From Terrilactibacillus sp. S3-3 (GTDB lineage: Bacteria > Bacillota > Bacilli > Bacillales > Sporolactobacillaceae), in the NCBI GenBank assembly GCA_030437565.1, contig CP129291.1, forward strand, positions 2,356,001 through 2,420,000: a stretch of DNA of 64,000 nt. Reading direction: 5' to 3'. Shown one piece after another: positions 18,732 to 43,439 of the stretch. The notes beneath the pieces are model-generated. The model did no database searches, was not told where the DNA came from, and saw only the letters and a program-made list of their open reading frames with translations. Made by a program: the position numbers and the translations under genes. The stretch's first letter is position 1. Each line of letters begins with the position of its first letter.

Positions 18732-18916
18732 CACAACATGTGATCCGTTTCGCAATTCGGAAAAAATCCGACCTTATTAATTTTAGCAGACCCTGTCGAA
18801 TTTACAATCTATTTTAATATCCTTTACAATATCTTTACAATCGACGTTTTACCTTCTTCAATACATAATATGGCCTTTCTTTTGATTTTCAGTCTGTTCT
18901 CTAATAAGCAAACTGA

Positions 18917-29170: not shown

Positions 29171-30547
29171 CTATATTTTCGGTAATACAATGGTAGCAAC
29201 AGTTTTATGGTCCTGACTGGTTATCGTTAAGCGCCCGCCGTGAAGCTCAATCAACTTTTTGGCAATCGCCAGTCCGAGGCCCGATCCCTTCCCGCTCGGG
29301 TGAACTTGATAAAAAGAGTCCATTAAATAAGGAAGATATTTTTTATCGACCACTTCGCCTGTGTCCTCAACGTGAATCTTGAAATGACTGCCTGCTTCTT
29401 CAACACGGATATTAATCGCTGTATCGAGATCGGCAAATTTGATCGCATTGTCAAGCAAATTCACAAACACTTGCTGCAGACGATGACAATCACCAACCAC
29501 CATCATCCGTTTCAGTCGTGGAACATTTATTTTGCACATCTTCCGCTCCGCTTTTACCTGCATTGAAGCCGCCGACTCTTTAATGACGGTATCCAGGCGA
29601 ATCGTCCGGCTGCATGCATAAAGTCATCGTATTTTCCTGGAGTTTGGAAAAATCAAGCAGATCTCCGACAAGCAGTCTCAATCTATCCGATTCGTTTTTT
29701 TTTTTATCACTGTCAGTCCCTCTTTTAGTTCACTCCGGTTCATTTTTTTGTCGAGCAGCATCGTCTCACTCCAGCCTTTAATGCTTGTCAGGGGAGTGAG
29801 CAGTTCATGCGAAACGGACGAGATAAATTCATTTTTCAATCTTTCATTTTTTTGAATTTCTGCTGCCATATTATTCAATGTTCTGGACAAGTCCCCCAGT
29901 TCTGCCTTATAGTCTTCCTTCATCCGCAGGCCGAAATTTCCTTCGGCCATTTTTGTTGAAACCTGTATGATTTGCTTTAGCGGATAAACAATGGAGTGAG
30001 CCAGCCTCAGGCTGATCAAGAAAACAAAAAAAGCAATGAAAAGCCCAACGATAACCGCGCCGATATTAATCAGCAGCAGCACGTGATCAACACTGGCCAG
30101 AGATGACAGATAAGAGAGAACGTAAGGCTGCTGATTTACCGTTATCGGAAAATAAACCGCGATCACTTTTTCACCCGTTTGCGGCAGCACTTCCACACGG
30201 GCCATTTTCTCTCTGTTTAAAATACGAGAACCTAATCGAACCGGCTGCTTTTCACTAAAACCGCTCGACGACATCACAACATTCCCCTGCATATCAAGAA
30301 GCTGCAGCGCTGCGTCATGGACTTGAAAACTATCCATGACTTCCACATAAGGGTTCTCCCAGCGATTGATCACCACTTTTTTATTAAATTTTTGGTACAA
30401 GTCATTTGATGTTTCGGCATGGAGCAGCAATGTTTTTTCAATACCATCATAATAATAATGCTGGACGGCGATCGCCAGGGCCGTTTCCCCAAGAGCAAGG
30501 GTAAGAATCACAACGGCCATAAAATACAAAACAACTCGCCGGCTCAT
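29171..30547 (-). CDS. sensor histidine kinase (YclK/YkoH type), frame broken
   Basis: About 459 codons. Two TM helices bracket an extracytoplasmic sensor domain of about 130 residues (residues about 35-165). A HAMP segment follows (YPLKQIIQVSTKMAEGNFGLRM), then the dimerisation/phospho-His box FISSVSHELLTPLTSIKGW and the ATPase lobe QQVFVNLLDNAIKFADL...GSGLGLAIAKKL. Breaks are near 29700 (eleven-T run) and 29608. The ATG overlaps the regulator stop by ATGA, so the two are coupled. The signal is unknown; a lipoprotein gene upstream may be part of it. Confidence 0.88.
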
Positions 30548-31261
30548 GATTCAGCCCCATTCCATATGTATCCTCTTCCCCAGTGCGTCCTAATATATTT
30601 AGGTTTTGAAGGATTCCTCCTCTATCTTTTGCCTCAATCGGCGGATGTTCACATCGACAATTTTCGTATCACCGACAAAGTTCGTGCCCCAAACATCGTC
30701 AAGCAATTCGTCGCGTGTAAGCAGGCAGTCTTTATTTTCCATTAAAGTCTTGACCAAATCAAATTCTGTCGGCGTCAGCTCAATCAGTTGCTCCCCTTTG
30801 AAAAAGCACTCATCTTCAAGAGAAAGTCTAAAAGGGCCCGAAGTCAACATCGTTTTTTTCCGGGACGAAGCGTTTTCAACAGTCATGTGCATTCGCCGCA
30901 ACAGGGATTGTACACGGGCGATCATTTCCACCGGGCTGAATGGTTTGGTTATGTAGTCATCCGCTCCCATTCTCAGCCCGTTCACTTTGTCCGTCTCCAT
31001 CACTCTTGCCGTTAAAAGAATGATCCCGATCGTCAGGTTGGTTTCTCTGATTTTCTTGCACAAGTCAAGCCCGCTGATCCCCGGCAGCATCACATCTAAT
31101 AACAGCAGTTGAATGTCTGTTTCATGCTGCAAGATCGACCATGCTTCTTCACCGGACTCCGCCTCATACACTTCGAAACCGGCATGCTTCAGGTTCAGCA
31201 CAATGAAACTGCGAATCGATTTTTCATCTTCAACGACCATGATTTGAACCAAGCGGCTCAC
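30544..31261 (-). CDS. OmpR/PhoB-type response regulator, one frame break
   Basis: About 238 codons. Receiver domain with IMVVEDEKSIR, phosphoacceptor in LLLLDVMLPGISGLDLC and KPFSPVEM; the winged helix has ELTPTEFDLVKTLMENKDCLLTRDELLDDVWG and VDVNIRRLRQKIE. The final KPKYIRTHWGRGYIWNG is in a second frame because of an extra A near 30603. GTG 31261 is preferred (AAGG about 8 nt upstream); a TTG nine bases on is an alternative. It partners the kinase that follows. Confidence 0.9.
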
Positions 31262-31290
31262 CTCGTCATCCTTCAACTTAATAACAATTA

Positions 31291-32491
31291 CTATTTCATG
31301 ATATGAACAATTCCTGCAACATCTCTAAATTGTTTTGGAACCGCATAAAGATAGCGGACAGTCTCACCTATTTTCACCCAGCCCTGTTTTCCATACGGTT
31401 TTGATTGATCAAGCCAGTAAACACTGAGAAGTGTTTTCCCTGTTTCTGTCGACACAAACTGGACGTGATCGGAAAACGCTTTTTTAATTTTAACGTGTCC
31501 GCGCCAGTCTTGCGGAAAATCGACAAAAAAGTGATGTTCACTATCGATGTAACGTTCTTGAACAGGCAGCGGTTCTGATTGGCGCCGATCTTCCAGCGAA
31601 TAAATCACGCACTTTCCGGGCGCGTCTGAACACTTGCCCTGGATAATGCGAAATGGGCCGAGTCGAACAATAATGGACGCTTGGCCGATAAATCGTTTCC
31701 CTGTTTTCTTGAAAGCGGCATTTTCACAAACTGGCCTTTATTAAAATCATAGCCGCTGATCGGGCTGCCTTTGTCATTCATTGTCCTGACAAACGCCGCT
31801 TTCTGTCCGATTGCGGGTCCTCCGATTTTGATCAGCTTTTGCGTTCCCTGCTCCACAATAAGTTGTCTGCCAATTAAAACCGGCTCGTCACTGTCATTAA
31901 ACTGGTAAACATCAATGTATGCCTTTCCATTTTTGCCTGCCGGGACAATCACCGTCATGTCCGTCCGTGTGTCTTGATTAAGATCACCGATAAGAACATC
32001 TTTATATAAGGTCGTAAATTTTTTTTGGATTTTATCGCCATTTAGAGTATAGACGGATAATTGATTAACAGGGTATTGCATAAATCCTAAGATTAAGCTG
32101 TGATAGTGAGCGGCATCCAAGCGGCTGACCATGATATTGGCGATTTGGCCCTCGACAGCTTCATCATATATTTTCTTCCATTGATGATTTTTTTTTTTTA
32201 GTACGGCAAAATGAACCGACTGAAAAGGCGTGCCATAAAAAAAATCACTTCGGGATCTTTTTCATTATCCAAATGAATCAGATTTACCTTTTCCCTGAAT
32301 GGTGAATGCGCGGCTTCCAATAAAGAAGCGTCTTTCGGCATATTCTTCTTTACCGCGTGAAGAATCTCCTGGTTTTGTTCCGAAAGTTTCGGCTGCTTCA
32401 TTAAAGTAGCCGGTGGCTGGGTCAGATCGCATCCCGCTAAAAGAGAGAGGCATATGCACACACTTATCACCCAAAATGACAGACGAAACAT
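31291..32491 (-). CDS. secreted lipoprotein of unknown function, frame broken
   Basis: About 400 codons. Signal peptide with lipobox LSLLAGC (cleavage before Cys at about residue 21), then a mostly beta-rich region with FG-GAP/VCBS-like phrases such as DVLIGDLNQDTRTDMTVIVP. No known catalytic motif. It ends just upstream of the two-component genes on the same strand, so it may be co-transcribed with them and act as a surface sensor or effector. ATG 32491 has AAGGAG at 8 nt; an ATG two codons earlier is too close. Breaks near 32235, 32195 (ten-T run) and 31607. Confidence 0.65.
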
Positions 32492-32497
32492 TTGCAT

Positions 32498-32980
32498 AAC
32501 TCCTTGTTAACATCATTCATCACAAATCTTCCTCTCGCTAAGCAATCCTGAGAAGAACCTTTTCAAATAAGCCGGCAGCTGTCCTACTAAAGGGCAAAAC
32601 AACAAGTCTTGCACAAGACGGCAGGCTGATTTATCCTTTCATTCTACTTTAAGCTATTCTGAGTATACAAAGGAAGTATAAAATCTATCATCCTTAAAAG
32701 GGTAACAAAAAAGTTACGATCCTGCAAAAAAATGACAAAGTGCTCAACGAACGTGATAATTTTATAAAAAGCGCAACTTTTCACGTCTTTCTTTCGATAA
32801 TCTAGTGAAAATACCCTGACGGGAAGACGCAAATGATTTTAAGGGAAACCGGATTCGGCCGGCAAAATATAAGACGGGGTAAGTCTGTACTTTTATGAAT
32901 ACACGGCGGCTCCTCATTCAGTAAACGAAACAATCGACACCTTAACCGGCTGTGCAAAAAGATCTGAAAGGTTTGAGAAA
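32498..32980. other. 480-bp region between lipoprotein and serine hydrolase
   Basis: A/T-rich, divergent promoters expected. A small GTAAC-A6-GTTAC hairpin lies near 32701-32716. I considered a c-di-nucleotide riboswitch near 32820-32880 but could not fold a known core. No gene seen. Confidence 0.35.
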
Positions 32981-34187
32981 ATGACAAGACCAACACGTAT
33001 CAACAAAAGAAAACGGCATACCGTTTTAATTTTTTTTTTTTTTTTTTTTCATCATCATCATTGCTGCCGCTGCCGGCGGATTCACGATCTATCGTTTCCG
33101 GCAGCCTTTGCAACGGGTAAAAAAAACAGCAGCCGTTCACAAAGCGCTTAATACGGTTCAACTTGGTAATAAGCAGCCGCCAAAACCGAAGGGACATATC
33201 CATGTCCAAAGCTCAAAGCAGCAAGATATTGATCATTATTTGCGCAGCCTGCATTTTACCGGCACGGCGGCTGTCGTCCAAAACGGGCGGATCATTTTGG
33301 ATAAGGGGTACGGGCTCAGCAATCGCCAAACGGGGATCAATAACTCCCCACAAACCGAGTACTATCTCGGATCGATGACTAAGGCCTTTACAGCCGCAGC
33401 CTTTATGCAATTAGAGGAGACGGGAAAGATTCACACGACAGATACTGTGGCCAAATTTTATCCCCATTTTCCGCATGGGCGGTCGATTACGCTTTTTGAC
33501 TTGCTTACCCATACATCCGGGCTGCCGACCCGGTTGGAGCCGGCTGTGCCTATCTCCAGAAAAGCGCTGGTTAATCAAATCGCCGGCCTTTCGCGTCACT
33601 TAGAGTCCAAGCCGGGAACACGCTGGCATTATGCTGATACTAATTACGATTTACTCGGTGCGATCATTGAAAAAGTCACGGAACGATCGGCGCATGAGTC
33701 GCTGCATACGTATATAAAAAAGCATATTTTTGCTCCCGCCGGTATGACGCATTCCGGCTTTGGTTCAGCAATGAAACAGACATCCGCCCCGTCGCAAGGC
33801 TACCTAAAGAATTGGAGGGGTTACTATATCCCGGTGATTCCGGCTTTTTCACAAGTTTTTGCCTGCGGGGACATCTATACGACCGCGCTCGACTTGTATA
33901 AATTTGATCATGCCCTGGCGGCGGGAAACCTAGTGTCTCCCTCAAGCTATGACCGAATCTTTACCCCCCGTCTCGCCCATTACGGGTTTGGCTGGTATAT
34001 CAACCGAAAGGGATGGTCGATCAAACCCGGCAGCTATTCCAGCCATGGAGTATTGCGCGGGTGGAACGGCAGCAACAGCTTTTCTATCGATCGCAGTACC
34101 TATATTGTTCTGCTTTCAAATGTCGGAAACGGTATAGGCAATTATGGTACGGTGAACCGGGCTATCTATACCCGTTTGGAAAAATAA
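32981..34187 (+). CDS. beta-lactamase-fold serine hydrolase (class C/PBP4* family), membrane-anchored, frame break at a 20-T run
   Basis: About 402 codons. Basic start MTRPTRINKRKRHTVLI, one TM helix (IIIIAAAAGGFTIY), then the serine hydrolase domain. The nucleophile motif is SMTK (about residue 135), the YxN equivalent is YADTNYDLLG and the third motif region is SSHGVLRGWNGS. The family includes D-aminopeptidases, esterases and D-Ala-processing enzymes; location before the dlt operon on the same strand fits cell-envelope work, but substrate is unknown. The only break is the run of 20 T at 33030-33049 inside the TM helix. Confidence 0.82.
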
Positions 34188-34280
34188 TACAGAAGAATAT
34201 TTATCAAATCTTGCAACTATTTTAAGTCATCGTTCGTCTTGTCTTTGGAAAATGTGCTAATTAGTTATTGCCGTCATGAT

Positions 34281-34297
34281 TGTAACTTTATTGTAAT
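34281..34297 (+). promoter_or_regulatory. WalR/PhoP-like direct repeat upstream of dlt
   Basis: TGTAAC-TTTAT-TGTAAT, an exact match to the WalR consensus TGTWAH-N5-TGTWAH. The reverse complement resembles PhoP boxes (TTACA repeats). It lies about 60 bp upstream of the candidate -35. Confidence 0.55.
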
Positions 34298-34357
34298 CAA
34301 AGACACAGAAACGTTACAGTGCCTTAGATGAAGCTCATCATGATGTCCATTTCCGCT

Positions 34358-34386
34358 TTGTTTTATTACAATAAAACCCTTATATT
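34358..34386 (+). promoter_or_regulatory. candidate promoter of dltXABCD
   Basis: TTGTTT, 17-nt spacer, TATATT; about 90 nt before the dltX start. Confidence 0.5.
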
Positions 34387-34474
34387 AGAAACAAATGGTC
34401 TTATTGGTTTTATTTGCATTGGCACCATAAGTGCAAACCTTATATTGGTTGACGTATTCACGGAGGCGAACAGA

Positions 34475-34621
34475 ATGAAGATACGGACGAGGTGGTATCA
34501 TCGGCCCCTGCCGCAATGGTTTTTTCGTACGCTTTATTACGTCGTTATCCTCATGGCGCTTGTCGTCATTTATGGGTTTTCGGCAGCTCATACAGGCACA
34601 TTTATTTACAATGAATTTTAA
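34475..34621 (+). CDS. dltX: D-alanyl-lipoteichoic acid biosynthesis small protein DltX
   Basis: Intact 48-aa single-helix membrane protein. Basic N-terminus (MKIRTRWYHRPLPQWFFRTLYY), a TM helix, and the conserved end with FIYNEF, the C-terminal motif that in streptococcal and bacillar DltX is needed for D-alanylation and may accept D-Ala. A GGAGG site lies 8 nt before the ATG. It is first in the operon, 13 bp ahead of dltA, as in other Bacillales. Confidence 0.93.
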   Translation: MKIRTRWYHRPLPQWFFRTLYYVVILMALVVIYGFSAAHTGTFIYNEF

Positions 34622-34634
34622 GGTGTGATCATTT

Positions 34635-36146
34635 ATGGAGATTTTGGAACAAATTGAACGCTGGGGCGTCTCATCGCCCGAAAAACCCTGCTTTATTTGG
34701 CGCAACCGCTCGCTGACTTATGAAGAGCTGGTGAATAAAGCCAATGCTCTTGCCCACTGGATTCTGGAAACGCTCGGAGACGACAGTTCTCCGATCCTCG
34801 TCCACGGATCCATGCATCCGGAAATGCTTGTTTGTTTTTTGGCATCGGTCAAAGCCGGCCATCCATATGTGCCCATTGACTTGTCAATTCCAAAAGAACG
34901 CATTTCCCTTATAGCGGAAAGTTCAAAAACGCGACTGGTTTTTACCATGGAAGAAACATCGCTTCCTCCTCTTTCGGCACTTATTGTTAATCAGCACAAG
35001 CTGCAGGACATTTTCATGATTGACGAAGGAAAAACCGTTCAAAATCGGATAGCCGGCGACGACACATTTTATATCATTTATACTTCCGGAAGCACCGGCC
35101 AGCCGAAAGGGGTACACAGATTCCGTATGACGCCTTAGCTAGTTTTATTAAATGGGCGCGTGCAGATTTCAACCTAGAAGAGGGCCAGGTCTTCCTAAAT
35201 CAGGCCCCTTTCTCATTCGATCTATCCGTGATGGATCTTTATCCGGCATTGACGACAGGAGGCACCATTTGGGCCATTGATAAAGAGATGATCGCCCGGC
35301 CAAAAGAGTTGTTTGCCTCTTTTGCCCAATCGAACATCAATGTGTGGACATCAACGCCTTCCTTTGCTGAGATGTGCTTGATGGAACCGAATTTTTCGCC
35401 AGGTATGCTGCCGGCATTGAACAAGTTTCTATTTTGCGGCGAAACGTTGACTCCCCGTGTGGCGAAACGTTTACTGGAACGCTTTCCGGACGCCGAAGTG
35501 ATTAATTCTTATGGACCGACTGAATCAACGGTCGCCGTCACGCACATTTCAATTGATAATCAGCTTATCGAGCGGTATCCTTCGCTGCCCGTCGGCTTCT
35601 GCAAAAAAGACTGCCCGGATCCTGATTATAAAAGAGGACGGAACCGTGGCAAAAGACGGGGAGAAAGGCGAAATCGTCATTGTCGGACCAAGCGTCAGCA
35701 AGGGCTATCTTGGCAACGCGGAAAAGACAAGAGCGGCATTCACCCTTATTAACGGCGAACGCGCCTATCATACGAAGGATGCTGGTACATTAAAAAACGG
35801 CCTGCTTTTTTATCATGGCCGGATGGATAATCAAATTAAATTACACGGTTACCGAATGGAAATTGAAGAAATCGAGCATCATCTCTCGCTATGCAAATGG
35901 GTGAAATCGGCAGTCGTCTTGCCGATCAAAAGAGACGGCCGCTACGATCATCTTTTATCGGTGATTGTACCGGATGAACCGCCGTTTGAAAAAGACTATC
36001 AACTAACATCAGCAATAAAAAAGGAATTGAGCCGTGTGCTTCCAGCCTATATGATTCCAAGAAAATTTATCTATCAATCTCGCCTTCCCATGACGTCCAA
36101 TGGAAAGGTGGACAAAAAAAAATTGCTGAGTGAGGCTCACTCATGA
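34635..36146 (+). CDS. dltA: D-alanine--D-alanyl carrier protein ligase DltA, frame broken
   Basis: About 504 codons, an AMP-forming adenylation enzyme that loads D-Ala onto DltC. The P-loop motif is [16 protein letters not shown], the A5 region is [14 protein letters not shown], and [25 protein letters not shown] forms the hinge; the catalytic Lys region [11 protein letters not shown] stands near the end. Breaks near 35118 (one base before [17 protein letters not shown]) and 35605 (A run, [10 protein letters not shown]). The stop overlaps the dltB start by ATGA, confirming operon coupling. Confidence 0.95.
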
Positions 36147-37302
36147 TCCCTTATGCGAGTTTCCTATACTTTCTTGTTATCGGCGTGCTGCTCATTCCGA
36201 CGGTTATCGCCGGCCTAAAAAAAGAAAAAAGAATAAGAGCTTATAACGATGTGTGTGAGTGTGATCATGATCGTGATCATTTTCTACAATACACCGTACC
36301 AGCTCTTGTCACTCATTCTGTTCATTTTGTGGCAGTCACTTTTGATCAAAAGCTATTTGTTCCTTCGGCAAAAGAATAACAATGCATCCTATTTTTATAG
36401 TGCTGTTATTTTGGCAATTGTGCCGCTTTTTATCGTAAAACTGGCGCCGCATGTTCCGGAACTGAATATATTTGGATTTCTGGGTATCTCATACGTTTCC
36501 TTTAAATCGATTCAGATGATCATGGATATCCGTGATCATGGTTAAAGAAATCCCTATAGGCCGTCTGCTGAGATTTATCACATTCTTTCCGACCATTTCA
36601 TCGGGGCCGATCGATCGCTACCGCAGGTTTGAAAAGGATTTGAGCGCCGTGCCTTCAGCCGCCGACTACCGCGGCATGCTGTATAAAGGACTGAATAAGA
36701 TCTTTCTCGGTTTCTTGTATAAATTTATCATCGGTTATCTCATCCATAAATACTGGATGCAGTCGCCTGCCTTGCAACCCAACACTGTTTTTAGTATTTG
36801 GATGTATATGTATGCTTACAGCATGTATTTATTTTTCGACTTTGCCGGTTACAGTAACTTTGCCATTGGTGTCAGCTATTTGCTTGGCATCAAAACACCG
36901 GAAAACTTCAATAAACCGTTTCTCAGCCGGAATATTAAAGATTTCTGGAATCGCTGGCACATGACGCTGTCCTTCTGGTTTCGCGATTATATTTATATGC
37001 GGTTCGTCTTCACCGCGATTAAGAATAAATGGATGAAAGATCGTTACCTGATCTCTTATATCGGCCTGTTTCTCAACTTCATGGTCATGGGATTCTGGCA
37101 TGGTTTTTTCATCATATATATTATTTACGGACTGTACCATGCGATCATGTTCGTGTCCTTTGATATTTTCGAACGGATCAATAAAAAATGCAAGTTCTGG
37201 CCTAAAAACAGCTTGACCCATGCTTTCTCGGTTGTCTTGACGTTCCATGTGATTTGTTTCAGCTTTTTGATTTTTTCAGGACGGCTGAACTTTCTTTTAT
37301 AA
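36143..37302 (+). CDS. dltB: MBOAT-family D-alanyl transfer protein DltB, frame broken
   Basis: About 386 codons, polytopic. It takes D-Ala from DltC-D-Ala on the cytosolic side to DltX/DltD for outside transfer. Family hallmarks: [65 protein letters not shown] and MGFWHG with the conserved catalytic-channel His. Breaks near 36249 (AYND joins [12 protein letters not shown]) and 36536. It starts on the dltA stop and is followed by dltC after 37 bp. Confidence 0.95.
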
Positions 37303-37339
37303 ATGATTTTCCATAAAAACATTGAGGAGAATGATAGAA

Positions 37340-37591
37340 ATGGCTGCAATAACGAATGAATTGAGAAATGATGTACTGGATATTCTTGTCGACGTGTGCG
37401 AATCTGAAGATGTAAAAGACAATCCAGATATCAGGCTGTTTGATGAAGGATTGCTCGACTCTTTCGGCACGATTTCACTATTGGTCGAATTTGAAAAACG
37501 TCTCGGTGTGGAAGTGCCTATTTCCGACTTCAACCGTGATGAATGGGCAACACCCAACATGATCGTTCGGCAACTGGCTGAGCGAAAATGA
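37340..37591 (+). CDS. dltC: D-alanyl carrier protein DltC
   Basis: Intact 83-aa acyl-carrier-like protein. The 4'-phosphopantetheine site is the Ser of LLDSFGT near residue 39, and acidic helices surround it ([19 protein letters not shown]). GAGGAG lies 9-10 nt before the ATG at 37340. Its TGA overlaps the dltD ATG (37588). It receives D-Ala from DltA and presents it to DltB. Confidence 0.95.
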
Positions 37592-38774
37592 AGGCGCCGA
37601 CATTCGGCCAATGATTTTGGCCGTCATCATTGTTTTGGGCCTTATTTTCACACCAAACAGCGCGTGGATGACGACCATTACGAAAAACAATGTCAGCCAG
37701 GCTTCGTCCAGTTTGGACCCGCATGTTTTTCAGGGCTTGCTCATGCAGAGAAAAATGCTGGAAGATAAACATTATTTGCCGATATACGGCTCGTCGGAAC
37801 TGCTTCGCTTAGACAAATACCATCCGACCAACTATTTTAAAGTGAACCCCGACGGTTTCACCCCGTTTCTCGTTGGCCGCGGCGGCATGTACTCTCTGGT
37901 TCACTTCTTAAACTTAGCGGCAATGGGCGGCGAGCTTCATAACCGCAAAGTCGTGATGATTCTGTCCCCTCAATGGTTTACTCAAAAGGGACTGGATAAA
38001 CTGCATTTTTCCCCTAACTTTTCTAAGGAACAAGCCTATGACTTTGTCTTTAATAAAGAGCTTGATCCAAAGTTGAAGCAGCGGGCAGCCAAACGATTCC
38101 TGCAGTTTAAATTTATCCGCGATGACGGCAAACTTGCCGGACTATTAAGAGACATCGCCTATCCAAAGCAAGTATCAAAAATAAAATGGCTCGCTGATGA
38201 TCTGGAAGGACATTTCACTTATAAAATATTGACATTGCATGATATATTGGAAGCTCACCATATCCGTCCCGGTTATCATAAAGGGCAGCGCCAGAAACCC
38301 GATCCGGCTTTGAAAAACCTCAGTTGGGCTGGGCTCCGGGCAGCGGCTGACAAGACGGGCAAAAGTCAAACAAGATCCAATCCTTACGGCATCAGTGACA
38401 GTTACTTCGATAAAAAGATTGCGCCAAAAATGGGACACTTGCGCGGCTATCGTTCCAAGGAGCAATACCGCTCTTCACCTGAATATGGCGATTTGCAGCT
38501 TGTACTGGATTTATTGAAAGAGGATCATGCGAAAGTGCTGTTTATTTCGGTTCCTTTTAATGGACGATGGTATGATTTCGCCGGAGTACCGAAAGAAAGA
38601 CGTCAAATCTATTATCGGAAAGTTACGAAACAGATTAGGCAAAACGGCTTTCAAGTTGCCGATTTTTCCGGCCACGAGTACGATAAATATTTTCTGAAAG
38701 ATACCATGCATTTGGGCTGGAAGGGCTGGGTTGATATCGACAAGGCCATCAAAACGTTCTATAACGAAAAATAG
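37588..38774 (+). CDS. dltD: D-alanyl-lipoteichoic acid transfer protein DltD, one frame break
   Basis: About 396 codons, membrane-anchored SGNH-like esterase fold outside the cell. One N-terminal helix ([13 protein letters not shown]), the nucleophile Ser in [11 protein letters not shown] and the Asp/His region [14 protein letters not shown] near the C-terminus. It moves D-Ala onto (lipo)teichoic acid. The true start is the ATG at 37588 (MKAPTFG...), interrupted after eight codons by a missing C near 37611. A bidirectional terminator follows, closing the operon. Confidence 0.94.
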
Positions 38775-43422: not shown

Positions 43423-43439
43423 TGTTACCTATTTGTAAA
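43423..43439 (+). promoter_or_regulatory. WalR-like direct repeat between cwlO-like gene and DUF1453 gene
   Basis: TGTTAC-CTATT-TGTAAA fits the WalR consensus TGTWAH-N5-TGTWAH exactly. It is about 200 bp upstream of the cwlO-like gene but in reverse orientation to it, and about 125 bp before the plus-strand membrane gene. Confidence 0.5.

Follow-up and report, generated by a model that had tools for sequence, protein, structure and literature searches.

The box ahead of dltX is probably a second operator copy, diverged in sequence, for a putative regulator encoded next to it. This regulator is an OmpR-family response regulator (RR) that shares an operon with a lipoprotein and a histidine kinase (HK); the operon lies upstream of, and divergent from, a beta-lactamase-like (bla-like) gene and dltXABCD. 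Surface charge, autolysis and the resistance to lysozyme and cationic peptides all depend on teichoic acid D-alanylation; if the assignment is true, the signal that sets wall charge outside B. subtilis becomes directly testable. The first-pass annotation had tied D-alanylation to wall homeostasis or phosphate state via WalR or PhoP; the link to an envelope-sensing two-component system is retained, but the adjoining divergent RR is the better-supported regulator. The box is real, its better-supported owner is encoded next door, and a link to dlt is likely.

The box, TGTAACTTTATTGTAAT at 34281-34297 (+), lies in a 287-bp gap between the bla-like gene (beta-lactamase/PBP-like, 33108-34187, +; Pfam PF00144, E 3.9e-53) and dltX (34475-34621, +; Pfam PF12459 and translation). 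Downstream follow dltA (34635-36146, +), whose first piece matches the NCBIfam DltA models below cut-off because it is partial, dltB (36143-37302, +; TIGR04091 on the 36532-37299 piece), dltC (37322-37591, +; TIGR01688) and dltD (37611-38774, +; TIGR04092). On the minus strand, the divergent operon comprises the lipoprotein gene (31291-32497), present as three frame pieces (32198-32497, 31605-32132 and 31291-31608) that give three separate matches to the lipoprotein of relatives; the RR gene (30599-31276; Pfam Response_reg and Trans_reg_C in frame 30602-31324), with the recognition helix VDVNIRRLRQKIE and an open frame that stops short of the usual C-terminus; and the HK gene (29171-30547) in two frame pieces, the first (29678-30547) with Pfam HAMP and HisKA domains and the second (29171-29623) recognized by eye. 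The sensor system and the box are found in one genome, where the lipoprotein and HK genes are frame-broken. Broken reading frames also affect dltA and dltB (34635-37302) and walR (G000:C1:3555236-3555926), in addition to those at 29171-32497; the completeness of the genome is given as 76%, and the many broken frames look like the product of an indel-rich assembly rather than biology.

A conserved operator, GATCGTAACTTTTTTGTTACCC (32700-32721, -) with the core GTAAC-N6-GTTAC at 32702-32717, separates the lipoprotein-RR-HK operon from the bla-dlt genes. The sensor operon has a -10-like TATACT (32675-32680, -) 21 nt downstream of the operator core (N21), and a second TATACT lies on the same side at N34. 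On the bla side, the N21 layout of a -10 is missing, so control of bla-dlt is less certain than autoregulation; a candidate promoter of the bla-like gene, ATGACA-17-GATAAT (32732-32760, +), is a consensus match only, and its -10 is placed at N37 relative to the operator. In the window, the whole 64-kb stretch of DNA that was analysed, GTWAY-N6-GTWAY occurs only at 32702 and 34282, i.e., in the operator and in the box. With its flanks, the latter reads GATTGTAACTTTATTGTAATCA (34278-34299, +) and has both half-sites and the GATY flank of the operator, as GATTGTAAC-N6-GTAAT. A matrix of five relatives' operators, run over both strands of the window, gives 34.07 bits at 32700, 18.72 bits for the box and 12.07 bits for the next site, and none of 1000 shuffles of the gap reaches the box score. 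With seven relatives' operators, the values are 34.55, 19.46 (rank 2) and 12.19 bits; both matrices were built from relatives only. The divergence of the box, 15 bits under the true operator with the seven-relative matrix, includes the second half-site, GTAAT.

Strong DltA matches identify dlt in 9 of 26 genomes of the family, among which the genus itself is represented by one genome. A bla-like gene precedes dltX at all nine loci, as judged by Pfam scans in the present genome and G016 and by eye in the others. The element GGTAACAAAANNGTTACGATC upstream of the bla-like gene is common to six of these loci, where it sits between bla-dlt and the divergent lipoprotein-RR-HK operon. The pattern GTAACAAAANNGTTACG has one copy in each of seven family genomes out of 26, against two matches in all for the backward control; six of the copies belong to bla-dlt loci, and the seventh, in G006, to a lipoprotein-RR-HK operon with no adjoining bla-dlt. 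The lipoprotein occurs in eight of the 26 genomes, namely these seven and G007, in which its operon is on another contig than bla-dlt and is preceded by GATTGTAACTGTTTTGTTAC. All eight have the RR and HK genes beside the lipoprotein gene (Pfam-scanned in the present genome and G016) and the operator GTAAC-N6-GTTAC in front. Conversely, G014 and G015 have bla-dlt but neither the lipoprotein nor the operator, the best sites in the 7-kb stretches scanned reaching 7.8 and 7.3 bits. Because G006 has the operator without bla-dlt, and G014 and G015 have bla-dlt without the operator, the motif goes with the sensor operon and not with dlt.

The spacing to the promoter is also conserved. A -10-like hexamer (A at position 2, T at position 6 and at least 4/6 matches) is present on the sensor side at N20-22 in all eight genomes, with at least 5/6 matches in seven and four in G010. 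Mononucleotide shuffles often contain a hexamer of this kind at N19-23 (931 of 4000); one case alone therefore says little, and the weight rests on the eight together. The GATY flank is found in seven of the eight operators, that of G006 being different.

The arrangement extends beyond the family. In a sample of 397 genomes of the order, the lipoprotein alignment has matches in 55, four of them in the family; from the 51 non-family genomes, 17 loci were examined. A lipoprotein-RR-HK arrangement with the RR helix VDVNIRR(L/I)R(Q/R/K)KIE is present in 16, and the remaining locus, L189, has the lipoprotein and HK genes with no RR between them. Within 860 nt before the lipoprotein gene, GTWAY-N6-GTWAY occurs at 10 of the 17 loci, at nine of them with a -10 at N21 toward the lipoprotein gene; the tenth, L198, has a -10 only on the other side. 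Among 3400 mononucleotide shuffles of the 860-nt stretches, 120 contain the motif and 14 the motif with the -10. The operator was then predicted for the seven motif-free loci in 1.8-2.2 kb around the start of the first operon gene, where the motif with a -10 at N21 was found in six; the seventh, L209 (genome G206), has no motif around that start. In total, GTWAY-N6-GTWAY with a -10 at N21 precedes 15 of the 17 non-family operons, six of them found by prediction, although closely similar loci (L191/L192, L193/L194, L195/L196 and L203-L205) make the independent cases fewer.

At eight of the 17 loci (L195, L196, L198, L200, L201 and L203-L205), a motif with a -10 at N21 facing away is present too. 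Scans of seven neighbour genes gave Polysacc_deac_1 for six; the product of the seventh combines asparagine synthase and glutamine amidotransferase domains. At L195 and L196 the same operator faces an asparagine-synthetase gene, identified by Pfam scan in L195, whose product may be an AsnB-type enzyme of wall amidation. Probably, a lipoprotein-gated two-component system that is present in many families of the order uses a fixed promoter code, GTWAY-N6-GTWAY-N21-TATAAT, while the envelope-modifying neighbour target is swapped between lineages (a polysaccharide deacetylase, an asparagine-synthetase-like amidotransferase or bla-dltXABCD); the box would then mark a lineage that gave dlt an operator of its own. 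No paper on the lipoprotein-RR-HK system was recognized in the portion of the literature covered by the search, although one may exist; PMC3128592 cites a study that compared RR binding sites across many genomes of low-GC Gram-positives and that may already predict this operator. The accessible parts of PMC7062640 and PMC9973362 contain nothing that bears on the site.

From the observed motif, gene order, co-occurrence and spacing, we infer RR binding, positive autoregulation, control of bla-dlt and a role for the copy in the gap. An envelope signal sensed by the lipoprotein and the kinase would lead to RR phosphorylation, two RR DNA-binding domains would occupy the two GTWAY half-sites 11 bp apart, and the bound RR, with the -10 at N21, would activate its own operon. 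The RR may also adjust bla-dltXABCD, and hence D-alanylation, either through that operator or through a site further upstream; the gap copy would let it act on dltX apart from the bla-like gene.

What the box would do at dltX is less settled, because it has no N21 promoter and a gap copy is otherwise seen only in G007. The G007 copy, GTTAC-N6-GTAAC, scores 15.76 bits, against 8.95 bits for the next site in the 8.3-kb stretch, and likewise has no good -10 at N20-22 (best 3/6). At the other seven family dlt loci, neither the gap nor the 400 nt preceding dltX contains the motif. Gap lengths in these seven are 1-134 bp (G010, 1; G009 and G016, 14 each; G014 and G015, 41 each; G020, 115; G013, 134), with 199 bp in G007. 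In a wider survey of 24 dltX loci, the motif lies within about 780 nt upstream in three, the present one, G007 and G160; the G160 copy is inside the upstream ORF and is not counted as a site. Fisher's test (0.017 with G160, 0.076 without) is given no weight, as the 17 other loci may also have the sensor system. The DltA tree is too weakly supported for the gap copy to be called ancestral or not. At L043 and L044 (f14 genomes), another RR-like frame, on the strand of dltX, stops 14 bp short of that gene on its upstream side.

Since no -10 hexamer was found at N20-22 from the box, a standard activated promoter is the less likely role of the gap copy; it more probably serves the dltX promoters as an upstream or auxiliary site, or else blocks read-through. 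Of the sigma-A-like promoters in the gap, the one first noted downstream of the box, TTGTTT-17-TATATT (34358-34386, +), is present as described, with TTGTTT at 34358-34363, a 17-nt spacer and TATATT at 34381-34386, 83 nt from the end of the box; its -35, however, fits at only 3/6 positions, and the better candidate, TTGGCA-16-TATATT (34419-34446, +; 10/12 consensus), lies further downstream. A near-perfect palindrome, GTTTTATT-AC-AATAAAAC at 34360-34377, occupies the spacer of the TTGTTT-17-TATATT promoter, and the surroundings of its -10, AAACC(C)TTATATT, recur at 34441.

WalR is a less likely alternative owner: it would bind the box, as a predicted site, and tie dlt to wall homeostasis. The box, TGTAAC-N5-TGTAAT on the plus strand, has 0 mismatches to the B. 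subtilis WalR consensus TGTWAH-N5-TGTWAH, as first noted (consensus quoted in the accessible part of PMC9210968), and WalR is encoded in the genome in two frame pieces (G000:C1:3555236-3555926). Six other exact matches (L083, L093, L094, L104 and two at L106) are near NlpC/P60, LysM, PG_binding_1, PcsB-type or SH3_3 genes, the hydrolase-like gene at L093 and L106 being on the opposite strand to the match. A narrower pattern derived from these six sites, TGTWAY-N5-TGTAAW, which the box also fits, has 10 matches in the genome, the dlt box included, against six for the control. In the excerpt of PMC9210968, C. difficile offers a precedent, with a predicted WalR site before dltDABC and dlt about 5-fold lower upon wal knock-down; by contrast, S. 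aureus dlt is unchanged on WalK activation (PMC10746227). In S. aureus, sites upstream of the -35 accompany activation. At L093, the WalR-type box TGTTACCTATTTGTAAA (43423-43439) has a minus-strand gene for a PcsB/NlpC-P60-type hydrolase close by.

Counts of the consensus carry little weight. Exact matches number three in the window, against 0.25 expected, and dinucleotide shuffles of the 287-bp bla-dltX gap give a match on either strand in 33 of 5000; genome-wide, however, there are 31 sites against 35 for the backward control pattern, so the WalR consensus alone is not enriched and proves nothing by itself: TGTWAH-N5-TGTWAH is an insufficient identification of WalR sites. Five TGTAATG-N4-TGTAAY matches cluster in one genome region (L098-L102, G000:C1:3.04-3.11 Mb) and are perhaps sites of another regulator. 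With a matrix of the six hydrolase-gene sites, the box scores 13.07 bits and takes second place behind one of the training sites, but is not separated from others at 12.65 and 12.09; since this matrix fails to separate the box, WalR is kept as a rival and not adopted as the sole owner. The box also has no -10 at N20-22, unlike L083 (TATTAT at N21) and L104 (TAACAT at N22), though L093, L094 and the two L106 sites lack one likewise, and its spacer and GAT flank are better explained by the neighbouring RR. The recognition helices of this RR and WalR are alike, with a common RRLR core; this may account for the resemblance of the operator to a WalR box, and it makes WalR binding or cross-talk at the box possible.

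It is quite unlikely that the box is a chance match without a regulator, with dlt transcribed from the bla promoter, from the sigma-A-like promoters of the gap, or from both. The lack of genome-wide enrichment of the consensus, the absence of a -10 at N20-22 and the presence of a gap motif at just one further family dlt locus out of eight are in line with chance. Against it, the box ranks second among operator sites over 64 kb and exceeds the third by 7 bits, its score is reached by no gap shuffle, and a gap copy recurs in G007.

Equally improbable, though retained as a rival, is ECF control with the box secondary: TGCAAC-N17-CGTC (34212-34238, +) would be recognized by an ECF sigma factor, dlt of the B. 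subtilis group being transcribed with such factors. This candidate has one -35 mismatch to TGAAAC-N16/17-CGTC, which is found at about -60 to -70 of dltX in five of five f43 dltX loci, f43 presumably being the B. subtilis group, and TGNAAC-N16/17-CGTC appears on either strand in 12 of 5000 gap shuffles. The element is, however, 236 bp from dltX, and the ECF pattern is not enriched genome-wide (32 against 49 for the control). Three ECF-type factors, out of 19 PF08281 matches, were compared with NCBIfam: none reaches the SigX or SigV cut-off, one exceeds that of SigW, and the other two, among the models shown, get no further than the cut-off of the general sigma70-ECF superfamily. These scores, and the ECF-like element in the same gap, bear in part on the earlier view that sigma X and V are not involved.

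A PhoP box consists of TTTACA/TTAACA-type repeats 11 bp apart. That PhoP owns the box is highly improbable and was rejected, for the reverse strand, ATTACA-N5-GTTACA, which had been taken to resemble such a box, does so loosely at best: it has only two half-sites, neither of them TTTACA or TTAACA, whereas the likely PhoP sites of the genome are TTTACA repeats. Two other exact matches to the WalR consensus, ahead of a PstS-like gene (L081) and of a PhoU_div gene (L091), have the sequence TTTACA-N5-TTTACA on one of their strands; the repeats at 18823-18839, ahead of the PhoU_div gene and a Pit-like frame named by eye, and those at L081 are likely PhoP boxes.

In Streptococcus agalactiae, the gene module raised by DltRS is dlt. 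DltS activation raises its own operon together with a gene module that lies within or beside it (PMC11502775), much as proposed here; the difference is that the present operon is divergent and places the RR and HK genes behind a lipoprotein gene, while dlt is headed by a bla-like gene. With the WalRK regulon, the present system shares the TGTWAH-N5-TGTWAH half-sites 11 bp apart and a similar helix (VDVTVRRLREKV against VDVNIRRLRQKI), but its RR is a separate protein: compared with the WalR fragment of this genome, the G010 RR is 39% identical over 104 aa and the RR encoded here 44% over 61 aa. In C. difficile, a WalR site is predicted directly ahead of dltDABC, and the available portion of PMC9210968 mentions no adjoining lipoprotein-RR-HK operon. 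In the GraXSR system of Staphylococcus aureus, an OmpR-family RR with an accessory gene activates dlt via an inverted-repeat operator, but the GraR site is ACAAA-TTTGT (PMC3128592, in part) and the operator here is GTWAY-N6-GTWAY. Judged by analogy and from these partial sources, GraR and DltRS are the nearest parallels to the neighbouring RR, the likeness being one of function.
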